DNA of 20,461 bases from a virus. The position numbers and the translations under genes are program-made. Numbering within the stretch: position 1 is the first letter of the stretch; each line of letters starts with the position of its first letter. Positions 1 through 13,893 of this stretch are shown here, in pieces. The notes below the pieces were generated by a model. That model was given only the letters and a program-made list of their open reading frames with translations, was not told the origin of the DNA and did no database searches. The DNA is taken from IMG/VR virus record IMGVR_UViG_3300036985_000412, positions 1 to 20,461 of that record; one strand, written 5' to 3'.

Positions 1-3000
1 GCAAATCTAGAAATAAATGTATCTCCACCAAATATAATTTCTGGTTCTGCTGCTAAATTTAACATTCTTTGAAACCCTGTATCAATAGTTTCATAAGAAT
101 ATATTTGACCCCATTGTCCAATAAAAGTATTCTTTAAAGAAGCATAATAAGATACAACACTTATTGGCTGTTCTTTAGAAGGTACATTACAAGCTCCACT
201 ACTAGAAATAGTAAATCTAGATTTATCAATAATGTCTCCTCCTCCTAAAGTAACAAGATTAGGTGTATCTTTTGGAAAAGGCAATCCATCATATTTTTCT
301 GTTGTTTTAATAAAAACAGAAGATTCTCTATTCCAGTTATTAATTGGAGTATTATTAGTATCTCCAACAGTTTGTACTGCAGGAATAAGATATTGTTTAA
401 GATCAACTTCTCTTTGTTTAATACCTAAATCATTATCTATACTAGCACTATAATCATAATTAGCTATAGAGTTAAATGAATATGCAAAATTTCTTCTAGT
501 AATACCATTAATATAAATAGTTAAATAAGATTGATATGCAGTAAACATTGCAGCAGCATTAAAATCACCATAATCTGCTATTCTTTTAGAACTATCTAAT
601 GCAATTTTTTGAGCATTTTTTGTAAGTAATTTATACTTAGCATTATTTCTCACTTCAACAAAATGGGCTTTACCAGCACCAAACATTACATTTTCAAGTT
701 TTAATACATTACCTAAAAATGGTTGACCAAAAGATGTTTCTGGAGAATTAAATATTTGTCTACGTTTTTCTACAGCACCAATAACAGGTAAAGATTCTAT
801 TACTTTACAGTTTAATGATGACCTTCTTCCACCCTGTTTAATAGGTAAAATTACATTTTGTGGTTGTACAGTAGCAGGTTGTAATTGATCAAATCTCCAC
901 CCAAAAGGTCCAGTGGTAGCACATTGACAAGGAAGTATATCACTTGGAGTACAATCTTCAGAAATGTTTGTTACACCTACATTAACTACTGCATATGAAA
1001 AATCTGAAAAATCACAACCAGGACAACATCCCCTTCCATCTAAATAAAAACTATCAGGGTTAAGCGCAGTATTATCTGTTGTAAAAGGAGTAAACCAAGA
1101 TGCTTCAAATCCTGTAGCTCCCCCTTCACCTGTAATATAAAATACATCATAATTACCAGGGCCTATTGTAGCTTTACCTTCACCTGTAGTTTGTGGTCTT
1201 GATATTGAACAAATTTCAATTGTTTCTCCTACAGGAGGAAGATCATCATAAGTTATTTTATTTGTATTAGGATCTGAATACTGATATTTTCCTGGTGTAA
1301 TAGTTGTTATTAACCAAGGATCAGCTTGTCCTGCCCAAGCATTATTAGTAGTGTTTATAAAAGGGTCTGCATTAAGATCATTATAAGGATAATTTGGATA
1401 ATAATAATCTGTTTCTTCTTTTGTATATTTACCTACATTTCTTAATATACCTTTAGCTACAATAGATCTGTTTGTACTTCTATCTCCTCTAAGTATTTTA
1501 TACCCAACAATATTATCTTTCTGTTCTTTAGTAAGATTAGAATTTTGTATAAATGCTGTTATTGAACCATGATCAATTTTAACTCCCAAAGGAAATACAG
1601 CATCTCTTTGCATCACCATATTATCAGCACCTGTAAACATAGCTGATTCAAAATGTGGAGAAACTAGTACATCAGGAAATTTATGGTGTCTAATTTTTTG
1701 TCCTGCAAGTTCTCCCCACAATTCTAAATTACAAGGATACTCTTGGTCTGATTCCCAATAAGCAAATTCTCCATATTCATAAGGAGTAGCATTACCTATT
1801 TTTGGACCTGTAGCAACTCCAATTACAGAAGCTGTATTATATATTTTCCAATATGCACTATAACCTGTTCCAAAAGAATCTGTAAAATCAGGAGTTCCTA
1901 TAAAATCAGCATTATCTGTAGTTACATCTGGGTATTGTTCATTAATACCTATAACTCTACCTGGAATATGAAAACCATCTGTTTGTTTTCCATTCTTTAA
2001 AAGAAATGCAATTTCAAATGCATACACTTCGTCTCTAAGATATCCTCTTAGGTTTGTAGCATTTAATTCATCTGCATAGTTTTCTGTTGCAGGTATTTTA
2101 TATGTTTCCCATTGTAGGGATATTTGAGAAGCTATAGATTGATAATTAATTCTATCTATAGATGTAAGTTGATCCCATACAAGAACATCTTGTACAGCTG
2201 TTACATCTTGTGCTATTTCATAATAAGGATATTTTTCAAAAATATCTTCAATAGCTAATTGTATTTGTGTAACATTTTGACCAGAATAAGTTATTTTTTC
2301 TGTTGCTTGTTCAATATAATATGTACCTATTAATTCAGGGGTAGTAATATTATTAATTGTTTTTATTACAGCTAAATTATAATATTGAAACTGCCCTGTT
2401 AAATCAAGATTACTAATAGAAACAATAACTGATTTACCAACTTCATAATTATAATTAGGAGTGGTTATTTGTACATCTGCAATAGGTGTTGGATTTGTAA
2501 CAGAATAATATGATGTAAAAGGATTTCCTGCAGCATCACTATATTGAATAGCAAATTGATATGTTCCAGCTTTTAATGCTCCCCCAGATACAACATCAAC
2601 TATATCTAATTGAGGAATAGTAAAATTAGGTTGCAATAATATTTGATTACAATCTAGTTCTTGTGTATATTGAGGATCACATAAGTCAGATCCAACTTTT
2701 AATGTATATGGAAGATTTTCAATATCTAAATATCTTCTAGAATTAAATCCATCAGTCCAATATATTTCTGTTGTACAATTAGAAATCTTATGTACAACTT
2801 TTTGTATTGGATGGTTTATATCAAAGTTTAAACAAGAAGCATTAATTAACTTCTGATAAACACAATCATTATTATCCATAAATCCAATTTCACTACTTTG
2901 TGTAAGAGGATTGGATAAAAAGAATATGTGTTTACTTTTTTCTATAATAGCATGTTTACCAATTAATTGATAGCCTGAAGGAAACTGTAAACAAAATTCA

Positions 3001-3209
3001 TTCCCTGGTTCATTTTGATAGTTAACAGAAGATGAATCAAAGTTTTCTACAGCAGCATTTAAAGCATATGTTAATTGGCCTTTAGTAACTTGATTAACAC
3101 TATTATCTAGGTTTAATCCAGTTGAGGCAACATTATATTCATTATTAATGTTAGATTTATCATCTCCACCAAGAATGTCTTTAATTTTTTTTAATTTATC
3201 GTCAGCCAT
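1..3209 (-). CDS. very large crAss-like tail protein (muzzle-type candidate), 3' end outside window
   Basis: An open frame runs without a stop from the ATG at 3209 to the window edge, giving the first 1069 residues of a larger protein. It starts MADDKLKKIKDILGGDD, a charged helix, and continues as mixed beta-rich sequence with no signal peptide or membrane segment. A Cys-rich patch lies near residues 728-732 (GCCPGC), followed by CQC. It directly follows two ring-like tail proteins and an HU-like protein. In crAss-like phages of known structure, the very large protein next to the ring genes is the muzzle that closes the tail. Size, position and style fit that role, but the identification is inference; it could be another large tail-tip protein. 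The start is 7 bases downstream of the preceding stop, and the leader holds the AT-rich AATTAATTAAATT. Confidence 0.6.
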   Translation of the reverse strand, partial: MADDKLKKIKDILGGDDKSNINNEYNVASTGLNLDNSVNQVTKGQLTYALNAAVENFDSSSVNYQNEPGNEFCLQFPSGYQLIGKHAIIEKSKHIFFLSNPLTQSSEIGFMDNNDCVYQKLINASCLNFDINHPIQKVVHKISNCTTEIYWTDGFNSRRYLDIENLPYTLKVGSDLCDPQYTQELDCNQILLQPNFTIPQLDIVDVVSGGALKAGTYQFAIQYSDAAGNPFTSYYSVTNPTPIADVQITTPNYNYEVGKSVIVSISNLDLTGQFQYYNLAVIKTINNITTPELIGTYYIEQATEKITYSGQNVTQIQLAIEDIFEKYPYYEIAQDVTAVQDVLVWDQLTSIDRINYQSIASQISLQWETYKIPATENYADELNATNLRGYLRDEVYAFEIAFLLKNGKQTDGFHIPGRVIGINEQYPDVTTDNADFIGTPDFTDSFGTGYSAYWKIYNTASVIGVATGPKIGNATPYEYGEFAYWESDQEYPCNLELWGELAGQKIRHHKFPDVLVSPHFESAMFTGADNMVMQRDAVFPLGVKIDHGSITAFIQNSNLTKEQKDNIVGYKILRGDRSTNRSIVAKGILRNVGKYTKEETDYYYPNYPYNDLNADPFINTTNNAWAGQADPWLITTITPGKYQYSDPNTNKITYDDLPPVGETIEICSISRPQTTGEGKATIGPGNYDVFYITGEGGATGFEASWFTPFTTDNTALNPDSFYLDGRGCCPGCDFSDFSYAVVNVGVTNISEDCTPSDILPCQCATTGPFGWRFDQLQPATVQPQNVILPIKQGGRRSSLNCKVIESLPVIGAVEKRRQIFNSPETSFGQPFLGNVLKLENVMFGAGKAHFVEVRNNAKYKLLTKNAQKIALDSSKRIADYGDFNAAAMFTAYQSYLTIYINGITRRNFAYSFNSIANYDYSASIDNDLGIKQREVDLKQYLIPAVQTVGDTNNTPINNWNRESSVFIKTTEKYDGLPFPKDTPNLVTLGGGDIIDKSRFTISSSGACNVPSKEQPISVVSYYASLKNTFIGQWGQIYSYETIDTGFQRMLNLAAEPEIIFGGDTFISRF

Positions 3210-3216
3210 AATTTAA

Positions 3217-4155
3217 TTAATTGTTACGTCTTCTACCATATCTGTTAGTACGATTAGGAAGTTCATACATATTAAACCTGTTAAGATCATTTTTAATCCT
3301 TCTTTGTTTTTCCCAAGGAGTTTGTTTCTTAATTTCAATATCAGCCATTATAAATGCTTCTTCAGAAAGTTGTTTATAATATAAAAGTTTTTGCTGTAAT
3401 TGATTAAAAGTTTCATCATTAGTCTGATTAGTCAGCATTTCAAAAACTTTATATTTAATGAATGCTTCTACATATTCTCTAATACGATAGTTATCTGGAA
3501 TCAATTGATTAGATAATTCATCATATTCAGTACCATAGAACATTAAATGTACAAGTCCGTTTCTAAAATTAGTAACAAACTTATTATCTCTAATATCAAA
3601 TGAATCTAAAGAAGAAGCATTAGGAGTGAAGTTTTCTGTATAAGATAATTCACAATTCTGTCTTGCAGAAATATTACCTGGTTGCAACAAGAATTCTTTT
3701 TTATAAGAACGAGAAATCTCATTGTTTGTTTTATACACTGCTTGAGACAACACAGGCATACATGTACCTTGACACAAAGGATCTGGGCACCCTGTATTAT
3801 TACATGGTGTACCTCCAATAGTTAAAGGTGCAATTTGTATTGTTGTTGATGTAGCAGCTTGTGAATAAAAAGAATTAGCATCTTGATATGGTCTCAAAGG
3901 AATCTCTGAACACATCCAAGCTTCTCTAACAGCATAAAAGTTATCTGGAAGTCTTGCTTGGAAATCTTGTACTAATAAAGGAGCTTCAATAATTTGATAA
4001 GTTGTTCTTCCTAACTTTTTAAGACACTTATCTAAATATGTAGGAAACAAAAGATCATCCACTGCACCAGTGTCAAAGTAAGATTTTAATTCTTCTTTAA
4101 CAGTGGAATAGACAGGTTCTGGGCTAATAAAATTGTATTTGTAGTAGTAACTCAT
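3217..4155 (-). CDS. ring-type tail connector protein, 312 aa
   Basis: The protein begins MSYYYKYNFISPEPVY and has no signal peptide or membrane segment. A compact Cys group, C118, C123, C128 and C132, lies in a Gly/Pro-rich loop. The C-terminal third is helical and basic, ending RTNRYGRRRNN. The N-terminal part, with its YFDTGAVDDLLFPTYLDKCL segment, looks like the helical start of podoviral gp4/gp11-type tail adaptors, which stack as rings below the portal. It sits between an HU-like protein and the large tail protein, 10 bases after the previous stop. The leader AATAAATAAAATAAA in front of the ATG replaces a Shine-Dalgarno sequence. The ring role is inferred from context and general resemblance; it could be another tail-stabilising protein. 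Confidence 0.55.
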   Translation of the reverse strand: MSYYYKYNFISPEPVYSTVKEELKSYFDTGAVDDLLFPTYLDKCLKKLGRTTYQIIEAPLLVQDFQARLPDNFYAVREAWMCSEIPLRPYQDANSFYSQAATSTTIQIAPLTIGGTPCNNTGCPDPLCQGTCMPVLSQAVYKTNNEISRSYKKEFLLQPGNISARQNCELSYTENFTPNASSLDSFDIRDNKFVTNFRNGLVHLMFYGTEYDELSNQLIPDNYRIREYVEAFIKYKVFEMLTNQTNDETFNQLQQKLLYYKQLSEEAFIMADIEIKKQTPWEKQRRIKNDLNRFNMYELPNRTNRYGRRRNN

Positions 4156-4165
4156 TTTATTTTAT

Positions 4166-4645
4166 TTATTTAACATTATACTCTTTGTATATATGTTGAT
4201 ATTTATCATCTGTTTTTAAATAATGAGAAAGGAGTCTTGATGTTAATCTACAAGGTTTAAAATACCAAAGATCAGAATGTTTAAATCTTGCTGTGGTTTT
4301 AAACCAATGCCAGCCAAAGAAATATCCTTCTGTATGATAGTTAAAGTTATATATCACTTTACCTTTCTCTTTAGTTTTTTGCCAATCTATAGGAAGGTTA
4401 ATAAACTCTTTCCCATTAGCGTGTAACAATCTTTTTCTTTTCTTTTTATTAATTGAAAACTCTCCAAATCCAAAAGGTAATTTAATCTTATCTCCTGTTT
4501 CTAAAATGTGTTCTTTAAAAGACTCATTGAAAGAATATATGATGTTTCTCCACTCATCAAATGTTAATTTTATACTAGAATACTCTTTGCAAAATTTAAG
4601 ATAGTTATCTTTACTTGCACTCCTCCATTCTATCTTTGTTCTCAT
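4166..4645 (-). CDS. HU/IHF-like DNA-binding protein in the tail module, 159 aa
   Basis: Residues 28-72 follow the HU/IHF plan: a helical stretch, then ETGDKIKLPFGFGEFSINKK, which corresponds to the family's GD.V.LPGFGtF.v segment, then a run of basic residues (about K67-R72). The NLPIDWQKTKEKGK segment near residues 83-96 recalls the end of the HU fold. The C-terminal 60 residues are aromatic and basic and have no counterpart in HU. HU and IHF bend double-stranded DNA as dimers. Crassviral genomes are known to carry IHF-like genes inside the structural block, which fits this position between two ring-type genes. The ATG overlaps the stop of the preceding gene by one base (TAATG), indicating coupled translation. 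Whether it acts in packaging, in the virion or in regulation cannot be read from the sequence. Confidence 0.6.
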   Translation of the reverse strand: MRTKIEWRSASKDNYLKFCKEYSSIKLTFDEWRNIIYSFNESFKEHILETGDKIKLPFGFGEFSINKKKRKRLLHANGKEFINLPIDWQKTKEKGKVIYNFNYHTEGYFFGWHWFKTTARFKHSDLWYFKPCRLTSRLLSHYLKTDDKYQHIYKEYNVK

Positions 4646-5373
4646 TAGTTAGTAGGTTTTGTATTAGGTGCCTGACCATCTATTCCATCTTCAGTCATAT
4701 CTGTTTTAATTTGGAAATATGTAGTTAGAAGTTTTTGAGAAGTTAGTTGTAACACTTGTTGTTCTAAATACCCTGGACAAGCAAACTCTTTATCTAATGG
4801 ATTTTTGCAGAATTCTTCATCAGTCACTTGTGCATTACCACAGCTACAATCAGAATACATTACATCATTAGGAATATCTTCTTCAAAAAAAGCAACCAGT
4901 CTAAGACTTTGTAAAAAAGGGTTATTTACATATAGATAACCATTAGTTATCCAAAAATAGTTTTCTTTCTTAATTACAGGAAGTCTTAATAGATTGACAT
5001 ATCTATTTACAGTTATTTCTTTTAATTTCTTTCCAGATCCACTTAAAGCATTAATAGAATATACTCCTTGTATTGTATATTGATAGTTTCCTTCAGAAAT
5101 TCTAGGAATTTTAAATCTACTTCTAGCAACAGTACATTCATCTACATAATCACAACATTCAGAAATAGGTACTTGTACCAAATCTAAACAAGGAATTGTT
5201 GTAAATAATGTATCAGTGGACCAAAGTTTTCTAAGGTTTGTTTCTCTTTTTATAAGTAGAAGAGCATTATTTCTTATTTCAGAAGCAATAGCACGATCTG
5301 TTATCAACGAATCTGTTGATAATAGTTTATGTGCTGATCTTACATCTGATACTAATTTTCTTAATGTTGACAT
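4645..5373 (-). CDS. crAss-like ring / tail connector protein, 242 aa
   Basis: The N-terminus (MSTLRKLVSDVRSAHKLLST) is helical and is followed by DRAIASEIRNNALLLIKRET. The segment CCDYVDECTVARSRFKIPRI near residues 73-92 and the YSINALSGSGKKLKEITVNR stretch match my recollection of a conserved crAss-like tail protein, one of the rings of the portal-tail connector. The C-terminal part holds the Cys residues DCSCGNAQ, FCKN and FACPGY, then a Thr/Gly-rich tail. It starts 5 bases after the phosphoesterase stop and overlaps the next ATG by one base, so it belongs to one translationally coupled run. Membership of the crAss-like tail connector family is fairly secure; assignment to a numbered ring is not possible here. 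Confidence 0.68.
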   Translation of the reverse strand: MSTLRKLVSDVRSAHKLLSTDSLITDRAIASEIRNNALLLIKRETNLRKLWSTDTLFTTIPCLDLVQVPISECCDYVDECTVARSRFKIPRISEGNYQYTIQGVYSINALSGSGKKLKEITVNRYVNLLRLPVIKKENYFWITNGYLYVNNPFLQSLRLVAFFEEDIPNDVMYSDCSCGNAQVTDEEFCKNPLDKEFACPGYLEQQVLQLTSQKLLTTYFQIKTDMTEDGIDGQAPNTKPTN

Positions 5374-5378
5374 GTTGT

Positions 5379-6608
5379 TTATATTCTATGTTCAAACTCT
5401 GCCACTTTACCATGATATCTATCATATACTAAAGCAAGAGCAGCACGTACACTATGTACATAATTATTATCTAGGTGCCATCTATCAGTTCCTGAAAGAC
5501 TAGGCATTTGTTGTATTCTAACTCCTTTAGTTTCTTTTGCCATATAGTGATGTTTATCTCCTGTATGGATTTCTCTGTATTTACTATTACCAAACCATGC
5601 TCCATATTCTGGATGAGTGGCAAACAATAAAGGAAGATCTTCTAACTTGCAATTTCCATGGTGCCATCCAATGAATGTATTGCCTAACACCTTTGCTTTA
5701 ACTACACTATGATTTCTAATAAACTCTACATCATAATGTTCTTTAAAAAACACTTCTAATGCATGTGCTAAATAAAATGATTTAGTTCGATCATGATTAC
5801 CTTGCACTAAAATTACACATACATCATTAGCATTTGCTCTTAACATGTTAATTGTATCAACAAGAATAGAAAATCCTAATTCATATTCAGAACTATAATC
5901 CATAATAACATCTTGTGGAGTTCCTTGTGTAGTTTGATTTTGATAATTATCTGTATGAAAGAAATCATTAGATATTGGCAAAACCACTGTATTAATATTG
6001 TAAACACTTCTAACTTTATGTACCAAAGATTGTGCTACATTAAAAAACTTTAAAGCTCTTTGGTGAGGATCATTTTCTCCATCTACATATCTTTTAGCTA
6101 AATGGAAATCTGAAAGAGAAAGTTCTATATCAACATGTTCTTTAGAAAGATCAACATCTTCTTTATTTACTTCTAGTTGATTTGGAGTGTAGTTGTTTAA
6201 GAATTCTGTAAAGTCTTCTAAGGAGTAATCTTGTGGTTGTTTTCTTTTAGAAAAGACTGAGGAAGTGAATTTACCGTTTGGTAAGATTTTAGACCAGTAA
6301 TTAGTTATAATGTATTTGTCTAAGTTTATTTTATGTAGAGAAGCAAGTTCAAGATCATCTTTGGGTTCAAAGTCTGAGACAACTATACTTTCAATGGTGC
6401 CTTTTTCATTATTTACTTTTCTTGTACTTTCTTTATGTACAAGTTTTTTAAATCTGTGTGGATTATTTTTGTTTCTAATCTCTCTAAGGAGGCTATTTAA
6501 CTCATTTTCAGTAATCCCTAGTCTTTTAATGTAATATGCTTTTGATTTTTTAAAGCGTAAAAGTTTTTCTAGTTGTTCTATTAAATCTTGATTTTCAAAC
6601 ATATACAT
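5379..6608 (-). CDS. calcineurin-like metallophosphoesterase, 409 aa
   Basis: The metallophosphoesterase motifs appear in order: SDFH (D167, H169), a degenerate GD motif as SND (N214, D215) with D220, GNHD at 270-273, GWHHG at 314-318, and HTGDKHH at 348-354 in place of the usual GHxH. These residues would hold two metal ions and cleave a phosphoester or phosphodiester bond. Residues 1-50 are helical and charged with a helix-turn-helix feel (KAYYIKRLGITENELNSLL); residues 60-160 form an extra N-terminal region. No signal peptide is present. It is the first gene of the last operon, after a terminator, and precedes ring genes by 5 bases. A nuclease or DNA-repair-type role is possible, but the substrate is unknown. 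An alternative start is Met3. Confidence 0.85.
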   Translation of the reverse strand: MYMFENQDLIEQLEKLLRFKKSKAYYIKRLGITENELNSLLREIRNKNNPHRFKKLVHKESTRKVNNEKGTIESIVVSDFEPKDDLELASLHKINLDKYIITNYWSKILPNGKFTSSVFSKRKQPQDYSLEDFTEFLNNYTPNQLEVNKEDVDLSKEHVDIELSLSDFHLAKRYVDGENDPHQRALKFFNVAQSLVHKVRSVYNINTVVLPISNDFFHTDNYQNQTTQGTPQDVIMDYSSEYELGFSILVDTINMLRANANDVCVILVQGNHDRTKSFYLAHALEVFFKEHYDVEFIRNHSVVKAKVLGNTFIGWHHGNCKLEDLPLLFATHPEYGAWFGNSKYREIHTGDKHHYMAKETKGVRIQQMPSLSGTDRWHLDNNYVHSVRAALALVYDRYHGKVAEFEHRI

Positions 6609-6701
6609 TAGTTTTATTAAAATATCGTAAAGATAAATGTATTTTTATTATTATGCAAGTAATTTTAACGATGTAGGTTATTATTTATAACTAAAATAGT
6701 T

Positions 6702-6740
6702 AAAAACAAAAACTCCCAGACATACTAATATGTCTAGGAG
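6702..6740 (-). terminator. rho-independent terminator after the Thr-linker protein
   Basis: On the minus strand the arms CTCCTAGACATA and TATGTCTGGGAG form a 12-bp stem (one U-G pair) closed by the tetraloop TTAG, followed by TTTTTGTTTTT. It lies about 40 bases downstream of the stop at 6781 and separates the fibre block from the phosphoesterase operon. On the plus strand the U-G pair becomes a C-A mismatch, so the hairpin is complete only in the minus-strand transcript. The roughly 90 bases between it and the ATG at 6608 are AT-rich; I do not see a convincing Bacteroidota -33/-7 promoter there. Confidence 0.8.
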
Positions 6741-6776
6741 AAAGATCTTGTAAAACCAACAAAACAAGACTTTTTT
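6741..6776 (+). terminator. possible plus-strand terminator hairpin
   Basis: On the plus strand AAAGATCTTGT and ACAAGACTTT pair with one bulged A around a 12-base A-rich loop, and six T residues follow at 6771-6776. No plus-strand gene was found, so it would act on antisense transcription, or it may simply add to the minus-strand terminator beside it. The stem is weak. Confidence 0.3.
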
Positions 6777-6780
6777 AATA

Positions 6781-7323
6781 TTATGGACAGACTATTGGTA
6801 CTGTAGGCCCTATTTCACCTACATTATCAACACGTGCTGAATAATAATTAGGATAAGCTGTTAATTTAATATGATAATATTGTCCAGTTCCAACTATAGT
6901 TGTTACACCTGAAGGATCATCATATACAATATCTCCTGGTGATAATATTCCAAAGTTTGAAGTACCTATCCAACAAATAGAATCTAATGCTTCTCCACAA
7001 CCATTAACTGAATTACTTGTACTAGAAATTGAAGCTGGTTCTATTACTAAAGGACCTATAGTTGTAGTAGTGGTGGTAGTAGAAGATGTTGTAGTGGTTG
7101 TTGTACCTACAGGTATATTTGTATAATTTGTACAATAAACACCATTAGATTTAACTCTAATTGTATTTGTATAATCTGGTACTAAAGAAGAAGCATATCC
7201 TGCTTCTAATGCTGCTTTAGATACACCAGATTCAAAAGCTGCTAAGTATCCATCAAGATCTGAATAAAGATCAAAAGGACCTGAGTCTGCTCCTGCTGTT
7301 GTTAATGTTATTAAAACTGTCAT
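6781..7323 (-). CDS. fibre-associated protein with Thr-rich linker, 180 aa
   Basis: There are two small domains joined by a Thr tract. Residues 1-72 start MTVLITLTTAGADSGPFDLY and contain FESGVSKAALEAGYASSLVP and TIRVKSNGVYCTNYTNIPV, a compact domain I associate with repeated adhesion modules in Bacteroidota phage proteins. Residues 74-88 are almost only Thr and Ser. Residues 90-180 form a second beta-rich domain with C109, C117 and C179. There is no signal peptide. It starts 6 bases after the stop of the big fibre and is the last gene before a terminator, so it is probably a fibre-tip or decoration protein made with the fibres. The role is inferred from position and the linker; the family is not firmly recognised. 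Confidence 0.6.
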   Translation of the reverse strand: MTVLITLTTAGADSGPFDLYSDLDGYLAAFESGVSKAALEAGYASSLVPDYTNTIRVKSNGVYCTNYTNIPVGTTTTTTSSTTTTTTTIGPLVIEPASISSTSNSVNGCGEALDSICWIGTSNFGILSPGDIVYDDPSGVTTIVGTGQYYHIKLTAYPNYYSARVDNVGEIGPTVPIVCP

Positions 7324-7329
7324 ATTGGT

Positions 7330-9585
7330 TTATATTATACTAGTTATTAATCCGTTTGTTACTGTAATTGTTTTTCCATCTTGAGAAGTAAATGATCCTG
7401 TTGCACCAGTTGTATCACTAGAAGTAATGTTTGCCCAATTGGCTTCTCCATTACTAGTTATAGATTTAAGAAATTTTCCTACAGCTTGTGTGCCATCTTG
7501 TAATTGTATAGCATAAGTTCCTGCTGCACCTCCACCAGCTAAACCACGTAAACCTATATTTTTACCAGTAGTAGGGGTAGTACAACCACCATATACACCA
7601 TAATTAACATTAGTATTATTAACTGCAACCCCATATACACCAACATTTTCACCTATTGATCCAGTACCAGAAGAAGTACTATTAATACCAAAAGCAGTAT
7701 TTGATCCTGAAGATATTTTATTTGTATCAATGTAAAGTCCATTTAATGTATTAGCTGCCACAGCTAATCTAAATGCTGAATCTGGAGCTGTGTTTATACC
7801 TACAGATGTATTATTATCTCTTATTAATCCTGTGGTTAATGTGTTTCCATCTGGATGCCATCTTGCAACATAGTTATTTGTACCTGAACCAGAAATAGGT
7901 GTTACCCAATTAGTGTCTCCATCTGCAGTTACACATGTTAAAACTTTTCCTACACCTTCTGTACCATCTTTTAACTTTGCTGCATATTTTAAACCTGTTC
8001 CTCCAGCTTGAGCATAAATTCCTATATTAGTAGTTGCATTAGAAGATTGAAAAAATCCTGCATAATTAAGACTTCCCCCACTAGTAGTGCCTGCGACTCC
8101 TATATTTATAGTCGCACCACTAGCACTTCCAGTAATTGCGGTATTTGCTGAAGCACCAATTCCACTTGATTCTACAATAAAAACATTGTTAAGTCCTGTC
8201 GTTTTTGTTTGTACTATTTTTTGAGTATTAGAATAAATATTATCAACTATATAGAATTTACTAATAGGGTCTGGTGCAGCTCCAATTGACAGTTGATCCC
8301 CAATATTTTGTATAATTGAATCTCCTAGTGTACTGCCATCAGGAGTCCACTTAGATATATAATTAGTGGTACCAGATCCAGAAAGTCCACTAGAAGAAGG
8401 TGTTACCCAATTTGCTTTTCCATCTGATGTCTGACATGTTAAAACTCTACCAATTCCTTCTGTACCATCTTGTAATTGTAAGGCATAATCAGTTCCACCA
8501 CTTGCATATATTTGTGCTCCTATATTAATAGTAGCTCCAGTAGCAGTTGCAGTTAATCCAGTATTTCTAATAGCAGTACCTAGTGCACCAAATTCTCCTC
8601 CGTAATTAACTGTACCTCCAGAGCCTGAACCAGATACACCACAACTAATATTTGAAAATGAAGATAATCCTGTAGAAATTCCATTTAAAGCATACCCTCC
8701 GTTGGAGTTTAGTACCCTTAATCCTGACTCTAATCCACTACTTATTAATACTTTTGTTACTGGTGACAAAGTAGTGTTTACACTTATTGAAGTACCATCA
8801 TCTTGTATTTGACTATTGCCAAGTGTATTTCCATTAGGAGTCCATTTAGATACATAATTAGTAGTACCTGAACCTCCAACTACACCTGTTACATCTGTTG
8901 CTGTAATATTTGCCCAATTAGCATGCCCATCATTGGTTATAGATTTTAAAAACTTACCTACACCTTGAGAACCATCATATAATTGTACAGCATAACTATT
9001 ACCTAAATTAGTATCATAAGCTTCAAATTTTCCTCCTATAGTTATAGCAGTACCAGCGTCATCATTAATCCCAGAACCAATACCATTAATACCAATATTA
9101 ATATTATTATCTTTTCCAGAACCAACACCTTGTATACCAATATTTGTATCTGTAGATCCAAAAGTTAAATTTCTTATACCAATATTATTATCATTAGAAG
9201 TTCTTGCAAGAACTGTATACTGTGCATAACTATGTGAAGTTGTTTGTATTGTTAATAATGCATTAGAGTTTGGCGCAGAATTAATGGCTGTACTAACACC
9301 ATTATCTCTTATTAGTCCTGTGCCTAATGTATTTCCATCTGGAGTCCACCTTGCTACGTAATTATTAATACCAGATCCAGAAATATTCCCTGCTGTACAT
9401 ATTTTTTCTTCTATTTTTTGTAATGCTACTGTAAGAGAATCACAGAGCTCTATACCTGAACAAACTAATGCTGGTCCATTATAAGATACATCTAAAGAAG
9501 AAATCTTATCACAACCACATTGATTTGTTCCAGATTGACTGCTACATCCACATGCAGAGTTTGGTGTTTGTAAGAATGGCCACAT
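7330..9585 (-). CDS. repetitive tail fibre protein, 751 aa
   Basis: The N-terminal 66 residues are Cys-rich (C12, C14, C23, C25, C42, C48, C63) and look like an attachment domain. Four modules of about 165 residues follow. Each opens with NYV(A/S)(R/K)W(T/H)P(D/N)G (W80 in the first) and closes with an LxDGTxxxGKxLxxxTxDGxxxW segment. The module interiors are Gly/Asn/Ile-rich, as in phage fibres and collagen-like or beta-helical shafts. The protein ends TSQDGKTITVTNGLITSII, an ending I associate with Flavobacteriia and phage surface proteins. No intramolecular chaperone or enzymatic domain is visible. It lies between a collar-type fibre and the Thr-linker protein, in one run with spacers of 6-10 bases. 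It most likely forms a trimeric fibre involved in host binding. Confidence 0.8.
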   Translation of the reverse strand: MWPFLQTPNSACGCSSQSGTNQCGCDKISSLDVSYNGPALVCSGIELCDSLTVALQKIEEKICTAGNISGSGINNYVARWTPDGNTLGTGLIRDNGVSTAINSAPNSNALLTIQTTSHSYAQYTVLARTSNDNNIGIRNLTFGSTDTNIGIQGVGSGKDNNINIGINGIGSGINDDAGTAITIGGKFEAYDTNLGNSYAVQLYDGSQGVGKFLKSITNDGHANWANITATDVTGVVGGSGTTNYVSKWTPNGNTLGNSQIQDDGTSISVNTTLSPVTKVLISSGLESGLRVLNSNGGYALNGISTGLSSFSNISCGVSGSGSGGTVNYGGEFGALGTAIRNTGLTATATGATINIGAQIYASGGTDYALQLQDGTEGIGRVLTCQTSDGKANWVTPSSSGLSGSGTTNYISKWTPDGSTLGDSIIQNIGDQLSIGAAPDPISKFYIVDNIYSNTQKIVQTKTTGLNNVFIVESSGIGASANTAITGSASGATINIGVAGTTSGGSLNYAGFFQSSNATTNIGIYAQAGGTGLKYAAKLKDGTEGVGKVLTCVTADGDTNWVTPISGSGTNNYVARWHPDGNTLTTGLIRDNNTSVGINTAPDSAFRLAVAANTLNGLYIDTNKISSGSNTAFGINSTSSGTGSIGENVGVYGVAVNNTNVNYGVYGGCTTPTTGKNIGLRGLAGGGAAGTYAIQLQDGTQAVGKFLKSITSNGEANWANITSSDTTGATGSFTSQDGKTITVTNGLITSII
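7847..9340 (-). repeat. four-copy, roughly 500-bp module repeat inside the fibre gene
   Basis: The module-opening sequence encoding W(T/H)P(D/N)G recurs at about 9335, 8831, 8336 and 7847, giving spacings of 504, 495 and 489 bases. The copies are diverged in DNA but keep the opening and closing peptide motifs, which points to old internal duplication followed by divergence of the module interiors. Confidence 0.8.
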
Positions 9586-9595
9586 AATTTATTTT

Positions 9596-10762
9596 TTAAA
9601 AAGGTCTATATTGAATATAATAACAAGGTAATGAAGGTTGATAGTTATTATGGCTGTCTCCAGAACCAAAAACTCCTATTGAACCTGTATGTGTATGTAC
9701 ACCATTAGTACTTGTTTTACCAGCATTAATTGGACCTGCAGAAGTAGTTAATTCATAATCAAATGCATCTGCATCAGCATTTAGTGCTCTAGATGTAAGA
9801 CCAAGATCGTTTCTTCCTACAACAGTACCATTATAAAGACTATTATCATTGGTAGTTGTATTAGATTCTGCAACTACAGTGTAATGAAAATGATCTCCTG
9901 CAGAGTTTATAGTAAGACTGTGTGAATGTGAAGGTATTTGAGCAGTATTTAATGCTATAGTGTTAACACCTTGAGCAACATTAACTACATATGTAGGATT
10001 ACCTACAGTGGAAGGATTTGTTCTTGTAGGCATAGGTTCTCCACCCATAGTTCCATCAGATACACCAACTCCTACAACTCCTCTTTTATCTGGAGTTCCA
10101 TTTCGACCATTACATAAATAAATTTTATCCCAATCTAATGTTCCTGCACCTGTAATATCAAAGTATGTTAAAGGACCATAATATTCAACTACAGCAAAAG
10201 GAACCATTTTATTACTAACTAATCCTGATGTAGGATTATTTGCTAAATATGCTGCAATATAACTATCAATATTATCTGCTGTAACATATGTAGTAAGACT
10301 ATTAATAACTCCTGTAAGAGATGTATTAACTTCACATAGTTTAGTAATAGTAGCTTGTAGTATATCATGAGTTCCAGAGTCACTTACAACTCCTTCTAAA
10401 CAATCTACATCATATGCATCTTCTAGTGCAGCAATAGTTGCATTAGTAGCATTTATTTGTACTTGAAGATCACATACCGCTTTAATCATTGCTGCAAGTA
10501 ATTCATTCAATGAAAGCCCATCACATCCTGCACACTCAGCTAAATATTTGCTGATTACATTACAGATAGTAGATTGATCTATAATTGGATAAATTCCAGA
10601 TCCATCTAATGCGTTTACTAAGTATGTAGTGATTGCTAATTCTACAGAAGAAAGAGTATCACCATTGTTAATACCTAATTCAGGAATAGCAAGTCCTGTA
10701 TATTTTATGCACTGATCTGATACAGTTTCAGTACAACCATTAAAGCAATTATTACAGCTCAT
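9596..10762 (-). CDS. short tail fibre with phage tail collar domain, 388 aa
   Basis: The N-terminus is Cys-rich (C3, C6, C10, C18, then C66, C76, C79, C96). It is followed by a helical, probably coiled-coil stretch near residues 85-115. From about residue 185 it shows the tail-collar pattern: DWDKIYLCNGRNGTPDKRG, Gly-rich turns, and the ending NNYQPSLPCYYIQYRPF, equivalent to the family's N.QPx..xxYIxR close. Three HxH motifs (HSH near 278, HFH near 290, HTH near 355) lie in the C-terminal part. In T4, HxH motifs of gp12 and gp37 coordinate metal in the trimeric receptor-binding tip. Its ATG overlaps the preceding stop (TAATG). Role: receptor-binding short fibre. The combination of collar tip and Cys-rich base also looks familiar from crAss-like phages. 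Confidence 0.85.
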   Translation of the reverse strand: MSCNNCFNGCTETVSDQCIKYTGLAIPELGINNGDTLSSVELAITTYLVNALDGSGIYPIIDQSTICNVISKYLAECAGCDGLSLNELLAAMIKAVCDLQVQINATNATIAALEDAYDVDCLEGVVSDSGTHDILQATITKLCEVNTSLTGVINSLTTYVTADNIDSYIAAYLANNPTSGLVSNKMVPFAVVEYYGPLTYFDITGAGTLDWDKIYLCNGRNGTPDKRGVVGVGVSDGTMGGEPMPTRTNPSTVGNPTYVVNVAQGVNTIALNTAQIPSHSHSLTINSAGDHFHYTVVAESNTTTNDNSLYNGTVVGRNDLGLTSRALNADADAFDYELTTSAGPINAGKTSTNGVHTHTGSIGVFGSGDSHNNYQPSLPCYYIQYRPF

Positions 10763-11028
10763 TATTTTTTTATTAAAAGTTTAACTTTACTTGCAATTTT
10801 ATTTATAGGATATTGTATATCATAATCAGGATTTACCTGTTTATACATCAATATTCTTTTATAGTTTAAAAGACTGTTATATACCCATGGATAAAATGGT
10901 CTATTAACCATTAATGTCATTGTGTTATATAATGACATAGACATAGTTGTAAGTTTACAATCTATTTCTGCTATAAGGTTAGATATGTTTTCACACTCTA
11001 CACAGTTTGTTAATCTAGGAGAAAGCAT
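10762..11028 (-). CDS. conserved small protein, 88 aa (alternative start gives 107 aa)
   Basis: I chose the ATG at 11028, which gives MLSPRLTNCVECENISNLIA with a CxxC pair (C9, C12), a helical middle, and a basic end KIASKVKLLIKK. The longer frame from 11085 would add 19 residues lying almost wholly inside the upstream Cys-rich gene in another frame, so the shorter form is more likely; it still overlaps that gene by 14 bases. The stop overlaps the ATG of the collar fibre. No family is recognised. Its place between the Cys-rich miniprotein and the fibre suggests an assembly factor or minor virion part, but that is inference. Confidence 0.6.
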   Translation of the reverse strand: MLSPRLTNCVECENISNLIAEIDCKLTTMSMSLYNTMTLMVNRPFYPWVYNSLLNYKRILMYKQVNPDYDIQYPINKIASKVKLLIKK

Positions 11029-11140
11029 ATTTACAGAAGGATTTGAATTTTTTTGATATATTATAACAAGTTGCACATAGCCCATTAGTTAATTGACACC
11101 CACAACCAAAGTTACCTCCACAATTTCTACATGTTGCCAT
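11015..11140 (-). CDS. Cys-rich zinc-ribbon-like miniprotein, 41 aa
   Basis: The ATG at 11140 opens a 41-codon frame ended by TAG. It reads MATCRNCGGNFGCGCQLTNG and continues LCATCYN, with Cys at 4, 7, 13, 15, 22, 25 and 36. Two CxxC pairs with a CGC between them are the layout of a zinc ribbon or small metal-binding knuckle. The density of Cys and Gly in so short a frame is hard to explain by chance. It starts 2 bases after the stop of the 187-residue protein and overlaps the next gene by 14 bases, which supports a translated, coupled gene. There are no basic DNA-binding features beyond the KKFKSFCK end. The function is unknown. Confidence 0.6.
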   Translation of the reverse strand: MATCRNCGGNFGCGCQLTNGLCATCYNISKKFKSFCKYAFS

Positions 11141-11142
11141 TT

Positions 11143-11706
11143 TTAATAAAAGTTAGTTATATAATTGTTACCTGTACATCCACAATCAGCATTGATAAAA
11201 TTGTCTAACATTCTATCTGCTTGTTGATATAATTTGTTTGCTTCCACTGTTGCACAGTTATTGGCTGCTGCAATAGATCCTTGGATAAAGAAATAGATAG
11301 AGTTTAATTCAACATTTGATTGTTGTTTAATTGCTCTATCACATTCCATCATGTCTAATTTCATAAATGCATTGTCAAACTTCTCTTGAAGTTTATCTAC
11401 ACGCATGAAAGATTTTTCTACATAATTGTCAAGTGCAGGTGCTATTGAATATTTAAAATAATAAACACCATCAGGAAGAGGTTGCTCAACACCAGATGAT
11501 GTAATTCCCAATGTATCTGACTTAAATATATTTAAATCATTGACAGTGAAAGGAATAAATACTTTTCCAAATCCAGGAACTGTTATCTCAATTGTAGGGG
11601 ATGTAACAACTGGAGGATCATTAGGATAGGTAGAAGCATCTGCAATCGCAAGAGTTAAAGTATTATATGTAGGAATTACTAGAATATCTAATTTTAATGT
11701 TGGCAT
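11143..11706 (-). CDS. conserved crAss-like structural-region protein, 187 aa
   Basis: The N-terminal half is beta-rich (PTIEITVPGFGKVFIPF, then PLPDGVYYFKYSIAP). The second half is helical: EKSFMRVDKLQEKFDNAFMK and a second helix with YFFIQGSIAAANN. It ends with a C175-G-C177 pair and GNNYITNFY. I recall close relatives in crAss-like genomes without an assigned function. It opens a new transcription segment directly behind a strong terminator whose T-rich tail reaches to about 7 bases from the ATG, and it is followed at once by the Cys-rich miniprotein. A virion or fibre-assembly role is likely from context; the half-beta, half-helix layout would suit a protein that binds a neighbour through its helices. 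Confidence 0.65.
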   Translation of the reverse strand: MPTLKLDILVIPTYNTLTLAIADASTYPNDPPVVTSPTIEITVPGFGKVFIPFTVNDLNIFKSDTLGITSSGVEQPLPDGVYYFKYSIAPALDNYVEKSFMRVDKLQEKFDNAFMKLDMMECDRAIKQQSNVELNSIYFFIQGSIAAANNCATVEANKLYQQADRMLDNFINADCGCTGNNYITNFY

Positions 11707-11712
11707 ATTTTT

Positions 11713-11762
11713 ATAAATAAAAATACCAGAGGACTTGAGAACATCCTCTCACCCTCTGGTAT
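11713..11762 (-). terminator. strong rho-independent terminator after the 388-residue virion protein
   Basis: On the minus strand the arms ATACCAGAGG and CCTCTGGTAT form a perfect 10-bp stem. An inner TGAGA/TCTCA stem closes around GGATGT, and TTTTATTTAT follows. It begins 28 bases after the stop at 11791 and ends just before the next ATG (11706). The longest uninterrupted stem I found in the window lies here, as expected after a highly expressed gene. Confidence 0.85.
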
Positions 11763-11790
11763 AGGTTTAATAATATTTACTACTTTATTC

Positions 11791-12957
11791 TTATGGAATA
11801 AGAGTGGTAGTAGTACTAGTAGAAGGCCATACTGTAGTAGTAGTTGAAGTTGTAGTGATACAAGCATTGTTATCAACAACATCACCTAAAGCATCTTCAA
11901 GAGCAGCTTGAACAGCAGCAGAGATTCCACTTACATCAGCATTTGGTGTAGCAATAATCACTGTAGCATCTTCATGGATATAATCACCCCAAGCGTAAGC
12001 AGCTTTATCATACTCGTTAAATTTAACGTAGTAAGTATCATAAGTAACACCAGCAGATACATAAGTCTCAAAGTTCTCATTGTATCCATTCATTCTGTAA
12101 AGGTGTTTCAAATAACCTGCTTGGTAGCTATAGAAATTTTTCTCTAATTGTTGCATTTCTGTAGACTGTCCTGAAGCATAAGAAGAACGTTGAACAATAG
12201 TAGCATTAGCTACAATGTTACAAGTATCAGCAACAATAAAGTCAGCAGTAGTAGCTGGACCAGAGTAAACAAATGTACGGAACCACATTCTGTCATATTC
12301 ATGAGGGAAAGCAGCAACATCACAAGGTTGTCCGTAAGCAGTTAAAGGTTTTGCAGTGATAACCAATTGAGCTAAAGCATCATTTCCAACTCTTTGGAAG
12401 TCATAGAAATTGTTAAAGCTAATGTTATCTGGGTTGATACCAGGTGCTTGCAATTTTAATTTTACGATGAAAGCATCAATTAATGCAGGAACATCTACAG
12501 TTGTACATGGATCACCTCCACAATCACAACATGGTGCTTGTACAGTTACTGAACGTGTGAAACCATTGAAGTACAATGTATCAATATAAGAAGAGTGCGC
12601 TCTAAGTGTTAATGTAACAACATCTCCACATTTCACATTCCATCCATCTACATTAGTAACTTGTACTGCAGGAGTAGAACATCCTGAAACTTTGTACCAT
12701 TCAGTTACATTGTGTTTGTAACCAGAGTTTAATGCTCCAGAGATCTTGTCAGAACGCTTAGATCCCTGTAAATATGTATTTGCTCTACCTTGAGCTACAT
12801 AGAAATAAGGAGCTGTGCTAGGAGTAGCTGTTGCTACATAGTTGTTATCAAAAATTCCAACTATTCCTGCTGTCAAGTCTTGCGTAGAGCTACCAGTTGG
12901 CAAAGTAGTTTGAGCCACTGGCACTACGAAAAACGTAGTTAATGAAAAATCAGCCAT
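11791..12957 (-). CDS. probable abundant virion protein with Thr-rich C-terminus, 388 aa
   Basis: The protein begins MADFSLTTFFVVPVAQTTLP and is beta-rich, with LTLRAHSSYIDTLYFNGFTR and a Cys cluster C143, C144, C146 and C151 (APCCDCGGDPC). A helical segment spans about 265-290, and the last 20 residues are mostly Thr and Ser with a WP in the middle. Codon choice is less AT-extreme than in its neighbours and resembles the capsid gene. With the strong terminator just behind it, this suggests high expression. It follows the ring protein by 28 bases with a pure A/T leader (AATAAATAAATAAA). I believe it is a structural protein, either an auxiliary capsid or head-decoration protein or a tail-tube component; the sequence alone does not decide. 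The Thr tail resembles surface-exposed linkers. Confidence 0.6.
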   Translation of the reverse strand: MADFSLTTFFVVPVAQTTLPTGSSTQDLTAGIVGIFDNNYVATATPSTAPYFYVAQGRANTYLQGSKRSDKISGALNSGYKHNVTEWYKVSGCSTPAVQVTNVDGWNVKCGDVVTLTLRAHSSYIDTLYFNGFTRSVTVQAPCCDCGGDPCTTVDVPALIDAFIVKLKLQAPGINPDNISFNNFYDFQRVGNDALAQLVITAKPLTAYGQPCDVAAFPHEYDRMWFRTFVYSGPATTADFIVADTCNIVANATIVQRSSYASGQSTEMQQLEKNFYSYQAGYLKHLYRMNGYNENFETYVSAGVTYDTYYVKFNEYDKAAYAWGDYIHEDATVIIATPNADVSGISAAVQAALEDALGDVVDNNACITTTSTTTTVWPSTSTTTTLIP

Positions 12958-12985: not shown

Positions 12986-13717
12986 TTATTCGTTTGTTTG
13001 TATTCTATATTGTGCAGTTTGCATTGCAGACATATTCTCTGTGTACATTGATAAATTTTCCACTGTAAGATCTAGAAGTTCATCTTCTAAATAAGTTTCT
13101 AATTCACAATCTTGGTCTATTGAGTTTGTTCCATCAAATTTGACATATCCTTGTTTATCAATATAAACTGGGTATCTCATATAAGAAATGTATATCTCTT
13201 TTGGAGTGAATGTTCCATCTGTAAATATACTAATTTCATCTGAACTTAAAAAATTAAATGTCTCCTGGTATTCAAAACTTGGTTTATAATGTACATTGTT
13301 TAGAACAAATTGAAGATCGCCATGTTTGGCAAGATCTCTGTTAATCCAAATTTGTCTATTCTTGCATCTTCCTTTATCAGCTAATACATAACTATCCACA
13401 TAAAACATATATTTAGGTGTAAGTGTATGAATTTTAGCTGCCCATTGGTTTAATTCAGGATTCTTTAATGTTAAAGGGAGCATGCCTTCATTATAAGCTA
13501 CTACAAGACTTTGAAGATCTTCATAACGTTTTTTAAATGCATCAAACCCTAGACCACTGACAATACTAATACCATCTACTTTTTGCTTTATCAACTTAAT
13601 TTGAGCCTCGTTGAGGGCTAAAATTTTATCCTCTAATTGAATTTGTTGATGCTCATTAGTTGATAGCTTATTCAATCTTTGATCAATCTTGTATAATAAA
13701 CTATCTACTGGTATCAT
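12986..13717 (-). CDS. gp4-like ring / portal-tail adaptor protein, 243 aa
   Basis: Residues 8-48 form an amphipathic, probably coiled-coil helix. The middle is mixed. Residues 160-190 carry SIFTDGTFTPKEIYISYMRY and PVYID, the beta-hairpin pattern with Y(I/M)R.P seen in P22 gp4 / T7 gp11-type tail adaptors. The C-terminal helix ELLDLTVENLSMYTENMSAM matches the closing helix of that group. Such proteins form a 12-fold ring under the portal. It starts inside the stop of the 59-residue gene (ATGA overlap), so the two are translated together. In crAss-like phages a ring protein at this distance behind the capsid gene is expected. The adaptor role is fairly sure; the exact ring number is not. Confidence 0.65.
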   Translation of the reverse strand: MIPVDSLLYKIDQRLNKLSTNEHQQIQLEDKILALNEAQIKLIKQKVDGISIVSGLGFDAFKKRYEDLQSLVVAYNEGMLPLTLKNPELNQWAAKIHTLTPKYMFYVDSYVLADKGRCKNRQIWINRDLAKHGDLQFVLNNVHYKPSFEYQETFNFLSSDEISIFTDGTFTPKEIYISYMRYPVYIDKQGYVKFDGTNSIDQDCELETYLEDELLDLTVENLSMYTENMSAMQTAQYRIQTNE

Positions 13718-13893
13718 ATCTTTTTATTTTCTAAAATATTTAACTCTTTTATAAAAGAAGTTGACCACTCTATGTGTCCATTTACAATCCCTACTTGCTT
13801 TTCAGTTATTGATTTTTCAATAAACTCTTTAGTATGCGGAAATTTTTCAATTTTCTTAGCAAGCCAGTCATCTAAAAGTTCTTGTTGGCTCAT
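13714..13893 (-). CDS. small conserved-context protein, 59 aa
   Basis: A 59-codon frame begins MSQQELLDDWLAKKIEKFPH and ends ILENKKI with TGA. It is charged and helical with no Cys, signal or membrane segment. Its ATG shares a base with the stop of the 322-residue gene (TAATG) and its TGA overlaps the ATG of the ring protein (ATGA). A coding frame fitted exactly between two neighbours with overlaps on both sides is strong evidence for a real gene. Function unknown; a chaperone or small head-completion factor is possible. Confidence 0.7.
   Translation of the reverse strand: MSQQELLDDWLAKKIEKFPHTKEFIEKSITEKQVGIVNGHIEWSTSFIKELNILENKKI

Follow-up and report, generated by a model that had tools for sequence, protein, structure and literature searches.

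What purpose is served by the many cysteines (Cys) in the tail-side proteins of the virus with IMG/VR record IMGVR_UViG_3300036985_000412? The stretch analysed here, called the window, covers positions 1 to 20,461 of this record (20,461 nt), and all its main genes lie on the minus strand. Judged from its sequence, the window holds the virion genes of an environmental virus of the crAss type, which is related to the gut virus crAssphage. A preliminary description of positions 1-12957 had noted close Cys groups (CxC, CxxC or CC) in nine proteins of 41 amino acids (aa) or more but not in the head proteins, and had suggested shared metal binding or disulfide locking of the tail and fibre assembly. 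According to our results, most of this observation holds and disulfides are the likely reading, but the core of that reading was known from crassviruses before. The conserved Cys are probably for the most part disulfide partners that lock the outer parts of the particle, while the cargo proteins ejected by crAss phages are nearly Cys-free.

Matches above the curated Pfam cut-offs identify the major capsid protein, ring proteins 1 and 2 (R1 and R2), the muzzle protein and a P22-type portal. The genes run in the order portal, scaffold-like, capsid, 322-aa, ring, auxiliary capsid protein (AUX) candidate, hub A, small hub genes, fibres, R2, HU/IHF-like, R1 and muzzle, which is also the order in phi-crAss001, whose fibre genes lie elsewhere, and in Leptolyngbya phage Lbo-JY46. 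Profile comparisons with Lbo-JY46, csAssE-Sib and phi17:2 back the assignment of R1, R2, ring 3/4 and hub A. The phage collection held no near DNA match to the window, and IMG/VR holds many close relatives. A PDB sequence search with seven family profiles gave no significant match; weak hints were R1 against gp43 (E 0.6) and the 243-aa ring protein against gp34 over its full length (E 0.19), and rows for coronavirus spike were dismissed as chance.

Cys groups occur in eight of the nine listed proteins (the muzzle fragment, the 242-aa ring protein R2, the 751-aa fibre, the 388-aa collar fibre, and the 41-, 88-, 187- and 388-aa proteins). The 312-aa ring protein R1 has none: its seven Cys (44, 82, 118, 123, 128, 132 and 168) include a cluster with spacings of 4 or 5, and CxC, CxxC and CC are all absent. 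The head proteins are without groups, as described: the portal has 4 Cys in 790 aa, the scaffold-like protein 0 in 416 and the capsid protein 1 in 517. The 322-aa protein likewise has no group (0 Cys in 322), and neither has the 243-aa ring protein, in contrast to R1 and R2. Overall, Cys account for 77 of 3466 residues in the listed proteins versus 5 of 2045 in the portal, scaffold, capsid and 322-aa proteins (odds ratio 9.3, p 8e-11). Without the 41-aa and the capsid-type 388-aa proteins, the difference persists (61 of 3037, p 3e-9); the binomial tests in this analysis treat residues as independent. When each protein was shuffled with its own Cys number fixed, close Cys pairs were in excess in only 2 of 9 proteins, namely the muzzle (p 0.033) and the 388-aa virion protein (p 0.016). 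Cys content is the stronger signal, rather than close spacing.

Relatives were taken from the best 80 of at least 598 loci and the best 80 of 344 loci. After removal of identical rows and of open reading frames (ORFs) that had an odd length or were truncated where a locus ends, 39 to 108 distinct relatives per protein were left. As these loci are the best matches, conservation here refers to near relatives; the distant comparison consists of a seven-phage alignment (see below) and of crAss001. In most of the listed proteins, nearly all of the near relatives retain the Cys. This holds for R2, the collar, AUX, hub A and the 41- and 88-aa proteins, apart from isolated positions such as R2 C199 and collar C77. 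The CCxxC/CxC stretch of the muzzle was not kept: its six Cys (C728-C763) are present in 0-49% of 39 relatives, whereas the ten other, lone Cys are kept in 39 of 39. For the muzzle, we therefore rejected the cluster as the unit of interest.

R1 carries a Cys-rich insertion (C118/C123/C128/C132, at about 3760-3804) plus C168, and C123, C128, C132 and C168 are found in 72 of 72 relatives. R2 has C62, C73, C74 and C80 at about 5134-5190 and C176, C178 and C189 at about 4807-4848; C62, C73, C80, C178 and C189 are found in 89 of 89 relatives. When R2 was aligned across seven phages (the window and six named ones), the columns of Cys62 and Cys189 held Cys in 7/7 and that of Cys176 in 6/7. The Cys73 column held Cys in 4/7, and the other three have a Cys three columns on. 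The four Cys of the 187-aa protein are present in 78 of 78 relatives, the six of the 41-aa protein in 63 of 63 (other residues 42%), and the three of the 88-aa protein in 89-95% of 64. In the collar, Cys columns average 90% versus 39% elsewhere (n = 108, p 5e-5). Conserved Cys are thus present in R1, R2 and the hub interface proteins of the window. In permutation tests, Cys were conserved beyond the rest of the protein (p < 0.05) in the collar and the 187-, 41-, 107/88- and 388-aa proteins.

An alternative explanation might be composition only, with Cys average in surface proteins, low in helical interior proteins, and without a shared role. It would fit the finding of close pairs beyond shuffling in so few proteins, and ring and muzzle Cys that are not significantly better conserved than their neighbours. 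Yet, the near-invariant Cys of the collar, hub, 41-aa and AUX proteins, the paired gain and loss of Cys and the 13-fold depletion of Cys in the cargo (see below) already disfavour this explanation, which we consider very improbable.

The reading as disulfide partners has a direct precedent. Cryo-electron microscopy of phi-crAss001 showed that disulfides join the hub proteins to one another and to ring 1/ring 2, and also link ring 1 with ring 2 (PMC10172136). In the window, the 187-, 242- and 312-aa proteins correspond to these bonded parts, the hub identity being less certain. Like the window, phi-crAss001 has homologues of ring 1, ring 2, muzzle and capsid in the same order, and its cargo is Cys-poor. 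It also shares the R2 Cys positions and the C-terminal CxC of tail hub A (THA), and disulfides were reported at that interface (PMC10172136). A C-terminal CxC of THA is found in the window, csAssE-Sib, DAC15 and crAss001, and cr128_1 has CC. The window differs from phi-crAss001 in its Cys-rich R1 insertion, its Cys-rich capsid decoration protein, the N-terminal Cys groups on its fibres and the six-Cys 41-aa protein between the hub genes. From the sequence and the crAss001 precedent, disulfides in the window virus are a well-supported prediction.

Comparable bonds occur in less related phages. In Agrobacterium phage Milano, tail parts including the sheath and baseplate are disulfide-crosslinked, and structural proteins are richer in Cys (2.1%); in contrast to the present virus, Milano is a contractile myophage with unrelated tail parts, and its bonds are partly broken for contraction (PMC10811340). 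Phage T1 likewise has inter-ring disulfides along its tail, but these involve a siphophage tube protein and one bond type, which the authors tied to flexibility (PMC11945409).

Further support comes from Cys that vary among relatives. Counted as both/neither/one present, pairs of variable Cys columns gave 60/12/0 for AUX 110/144, 49/22/1 for AUX 75/80, 18/91/0 for collar 166/172 and 28/12/0 for muzzle 629/647. On trees, 8 changes were counted for AUX 75 and 7 for AUX 80; of 7 independent comparisons, 6 showed a joint change and none a change in opposite directions (p 0.031). Collar 166 and 172 changed five times each and together in 4 of 4 comparisons (p 0.125), and AUX 110 and 144 changed twice each, together. 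AUX 93/366 and collar 80/380 were uninformative, and ring 1 44/82 showed no paired change. As a control, we used same-residue column pairs of all residues in seven families, with changes counted on trees. At phi >= 0.9 and at least four changes, 2 of 58 Cys pairs stood out versus 7 of 110437 pairs of other residues (p 1e-5); at no fewer than two changes, 7 of 224 versus 61 of 239697 (p 5e-13), and without the muzzle 3 of 34 Cys pairs (p 1e-7). A four-ligand metal site would change in fours, and Cys that change in pairs therefore point to disulfides; on this sequence evidence, paired gain and loss favours disulfides over metal.

Metal sites require consideration in their own right. Metal-binding Cys occur in the tail protein gpL of phage lambda. 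As cited in PMC11945409, this iron-sulfur tail tip is a metal cluster in one tip protein, and no homologue of it was found here. For the window virus, the clusters might mainly be structural sites for zinc or possibly iron-sulfur. Small domains and docking ends would then fold around the metal while still in the reducing cytoplasm, and no oxidation after lysis would be needed. The CxxC/CxC spacing in the 41-aa protein and in the collar and fibre N-termini suits this explanation, as do the six invariant Cys of the 41-aa protein, a zinc-finger signature that the depositors of csAssE-Sib annotated in a ring protein, and the zinc-ribbon-like N-terminus of a 666-aa protein in relative G002. Nevertheless, Cys change in pairs and not in fours, the muzzle keeps its lone, widely spaced Cys and not its clusters, and none of the 10 window proteins scanned matched a Pfam zinc family. 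Moreover, the homologous parts of crAss001 are described with disulfides, in a text where 'zinc' occurs 0 times and 'metal' once (PMC10172136). Metal sites as the main role hence seem unlikely, and the proposal of one shared metal-binding scheme found no support, whereas disulfide locking of the tail and fibre assembly is well supported by the phi-crAss001 precedent and the paired changes.

A few small clusters, above all that of the 41-aa protein, may bind zinc instead. The six Cys of this protein do not vary among relatives and thus offer no paired changes for a choice between disulfide and metal. The protein had no Pfam match and no convincing PDB match; we disregarded low E-values against designed PPR proteins, which stem from repeated 9-residue matches. 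The 41-aa and 88-aa genes overlap out of frame by ~14 bases (11015-11028), which suggests translational coupling.

The fibres extend the pattern beyond rings and hub. In the 751-aa fibre, 7 of 11 Cys fall in the first 80 residues (about 9397-9552; p 3.5e-5), likely the docking end. Among 69 distinct relatives, 77-99% retain each of six of these seven, 7% retain C25, and other residues average 24%. The collar has 7 of 12 Cys in its first 80 residues (p 4.7e-3), with an N-terminal CxxCxxxC at about 10709-10756. Similar concentrations within the first 80 residues were found in Lbo-JY46 (8/8 Cys of an 814-aa protein and 8/12 of the 669-aa fibre) and phi17:2 (7/7 in gp047 and 4/5 in gp048), and not in the csAssE-Sib fibre or five other phi17:2 proteins. 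The crAss001 fibre gp22 docks via residues 1-26 (PMC10172136), so a Cys-rich N-terminus would be the place for a covalent fibre anchor. Relative G001 encodes a 735-aa fibre-type protein (24747-26954) in which 46 residues (6.3%) are Cys; the same genome also encodes a 424-aa hub-B-like fusion (22323-23597) with 18 Cys.

Possibly, such bonds act as a redox trigger: fibres or muzzle would stay locked until, at the host surface, thiol exchange releases them for ejection. The sheath disulfides of Milano must be reduced for contraction (PMC10811340), and Cys are concentrated at docking and muzzle positions, as a trigger would have it. The evidence presented here does not separate a lock from a trigger. 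We know of no contraction step in crass tails, which counts against a trigger, and we regard it as rather improbable.

The 388-aa virion protein requires a revision of the proposed contrast between tail and head. Its AlphaFold2 (AF2) model was of moderate confidence (pLDDT 62, pTM 0.58) and best matched 7qof_a, a chain of 333 residues in the icosahedral capsid of phi-crAss001 (Z 11.8, root-mean-square deviation 6.1 over 264 residues), with the next unrelated rows at Z about 8.3. The match came from VIA-align; Foldseek alone found no relative of the model. The auxiliary capsid protein gp36 of crAss001 has 333 residues, and profile comparison found no sequence match between it and the 388-aa protein. 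On the strength of the model, one Cys-rich protein, with a CCxC-x4-C motif at about 12505-12531, probably dresses the head. The portal-vertex capsid protein gp57 of phi-crAss001 is a disulfide-bonded dimer (PMC10172136). Because this Cys-rich protein is best read as a capsid decoration protein of the auxiliary type, Cys do not separate tail from head cleanly; the better division is between the outer shell plus conduit and the interior.

The interior is where the cargo proteins reside. According to Bayfield et al. (PMC10172136), crAss cargo proteins are stored in capsid and tail and are partly unfolded for ejection. These proteins, encoded outside the window, have 49 Cys in 45271 residues in seven crAss phages, versus 351 in 25114 for the replication-side proteins of six of them. 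This 13-fold depletion lies far beyond that of any other residue; the next ratios are 0.42 for His and 0.60 for Trp. We assigned cargo genes from their annotation and gene order (three of five in cr128_1, three in crAss002, two in jaberico), and phi14:2 g070, annotated as a tail protein, was counted with them. The control coding sequences were hand-picked from annotation tables, with some short ones left out and cr128_1 without a control set. In two full-length relatives of the window, cargo proteins had 4 Cys in 7890 and 3 in 7487 residues, versus 1.4-1.5% Cys in other proteins and 3.8-4.4% in hub proteins.

A giant ORF of relative G002, of the RNA-polymerase type of cargo gene, matches the crAss001 cargo proteins gp47 (E 4.5e-24) and gp50 (E 2e-12), in the region after the muzzle; PHROG gave little for the cargo ORFs of G002. 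The giant ORFs measure 4328 aa in G001 (46395-59381) and 4157 aa in G002 (7788 to about 20260), the latter as if gp47 and gp50 were fused. The 666-aa protein of G002 (26215-28215), also after the muzzle, has all 4 Cys in its zinc-ribbon-like N-terminus. Given the His ratio, avoidance in the cargo may concern metal ligands as well as thiols.

Ejected proteins of short-tailed phages outside the crAss group had a total of 1 Cys in 7864 residues: 0/3500 in the N4 virion RNA polymerase (vRNAP), 0/794 in N4 gp51 and gp52, 1/2261 in T7 gp14-16 and 0/1309 in P22 gp7/16/20. For N4 and P22, the set of ejected proteins is in part our assumption. Exceptions in T7 are gp6.7, noted in the record as injected (1 Cys in 88 residues), and gp14 (1 in 196). 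We found no mention of Cys-free ejected proteins in the literature searched, which is no proof that they are unpublished; the stem 'cystein' is absent from PMC8954989, PMC12633501 and PMC10136315. We regard as evenly balanced the broader proposal that Cys are partitioned virion-wide, with a Cys-rich, disulfide-locked conduit, docking collar and outer dressing and with stored, threaded proteins purged of Cys, and that this purge is general in short-tailed phages that eject proteins.

Together, a lock of this kind could work as follows. The conserved Cys sit mainly in ring 1, ring 2, the adjoining hub proteins, the muzzle, the auxiliary capsid protein and the N-termini by which the fibres are likely to dock, and most of them would be disulfide partners that lock these parts together, by the same bonds as in phi-crAss001. 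Assembly would proceed with free thiols in the reducing host cytoplasm. The bonds would then close at lysis, on exposure to an oxidising environment, and the fibres would be anchored covalently. Cargo that is threaded through the tail must stay mobile, and the Cys depletion seen in relatives would prevent crosslinks to itself or to the conduit.

Several results weigh against this interpretation. With just 2 Cys, R1 of crAss001 is without the Cys insertion found in the window, and hence part of the window's network is not the one that was solved. The crAss001 fibres are without an N-terminal Cys group (30 proteins were tested over all phages). The two rings (p ~0.15) and the muzzle (p 0.2) showed no significant excess of Cys conservation in the permutation tests, because their other columns are conserved as well. 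The paired changes involve few columns, and the top pairs were looked at first. Co-occurrence of variable Cys across proteins, scored per locus for 436 pairs, gave no clean partner pairs; the top positive rows contrasted 3 loci with 26, and hence we claim no intermolecular partner. The low His and Trp of the cargo indicate that the Cys-poor interior may partly reflect general composition.

The hub assignments are a further weak point. The 187-aa protein has profile matches to the THA-position proteins of Lbo-JY46, phi17:2 and csAssE-Sib, but no match to Pfam crAss_THA and a weak one, at 7.7% probability, to the crAss001 THA profile. Its AF2 model (pLDDT 87) is a beta-sandwich with three helices and a C-terminal CGC at about 11176-11184. 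Among the matches listed, a fold search with this model gave FN3/Ig-like domains and no crass hub protein, and therefore the identity of hub A rests on gene order and profiles. For the 88-aa protein, neither profile comparison nor Pfam gave a sequence match to tail hub B (THB) of crAss001.

The features of the window are listed in Table 1. The HU/IHF-like protein has a weak Pfam Bac_DNA_binding match below the cut-off. A gene of the phrog_704 DNA repair exonuclease type lies within the tail operon (5379-6608) and is far more diverged in relatives (26-76%) than its neighbours. Long, linker-like Thr/Ser runs occur in a 180-aa protein (6781-7323) and at the C-terminus of the AUX candidate. Over the kept loci, the capsid protein is 95-99% identical, versus medians of 63% for the scaffold, 80% for the portal and 44% for the collar (best 80 of at least 598 loci, a sample biased by being the best matches). 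Lbo-JY46 (PP438436), an unclassified cyanobacterial phage, carries a crAss-type structural block in the same order. The sole match in GTDB genomes was the 13.4-kb contig JACIXZ010000023.1 of a Tissierellales metagenome-assembled genome, possibly misbinned, with a capsid identity of 88%, which is too little to name a host.

Table 1. Features of the 20,461-nt window.
Feature	Positions	Strand	Basis or remark
Muzzle protein, N-terminal 1069 residues, runs off window; 16 Cys	3..3209	-	Pfam crAss_MUZ PF25731, 99.7 bits (cut-off 27)
R1, 312 aa	3217..4155	-	Pfam CrAss_Ring_1 PF24228, 40.3 bits (cut-off 27)
HU/IHF-like protein between R2 and R1; 2 Cys, no group	4166..4645	-	phrog_12177; place of crAss001 gp42
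R2, 242 aa	4645..5373	-	Pfam CrAss_Ring_2 PF25702, 60 bits (cut-off 27)
Tail fibre, 751 aa	7330..9585	-	N-terminal Cys concentration
Collar fibre, 388 aa, phage tail-fibre C-terminal part	9596..10762	-	phrog_8763, phrog_8469
88-aa protein with CxxC, candidate THB	10762..11028	-	Place in gene order
41-aa mini-protein, CxxC-x5-CxC-x6-CxxC, between two hub genes	11015..11140	-	Six invariant Cys
187-aa protein, THA candidate	11143..11706	-	Profile matches to THA-position proteins
AUX candidate, 388 aa	11791..12957	-	AF2 model versus 7qof_a
Third ring protein (R3/R4 type), 243 aa, no Cys group	12986..13717	-	Profile match to Lbo-JY46 and csAssE-Sib ring proteins
322-aa gp33-type protein, no Cys	13893..14861	-	Gene order
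Major capsid protein, 1 Cys	15104..16657	-	Pfam Crass_capsid PF23898, 98.6 bits (cut-off 27); phrog_11589
Scaffold-like protein, no Cys	16693..17943	-	Gene order
Portal, 4 Cys, no group, 5' end open	18088..20460	-	Pfam P22_portal, 48.6 bits; phrog_6547

Two findings merit following: that Cys extend to docking ends and to the dressing of the capsid, and that ejected proteins are, reciprocally, purged of Cys. If the lock is real, an abundant environmental crAss-type lineage has carried a known disulfide scheme over to the docking ends of its fibres and the dressing of its capsid. Such an extension would help to explain the stability of the particles outside the host. If the purge is real, it would offer a simple sequence signature for phage-injected proteins, useful in unannotated genomes, and the unfolding and refolding of giant proteins during ejection would become testable.

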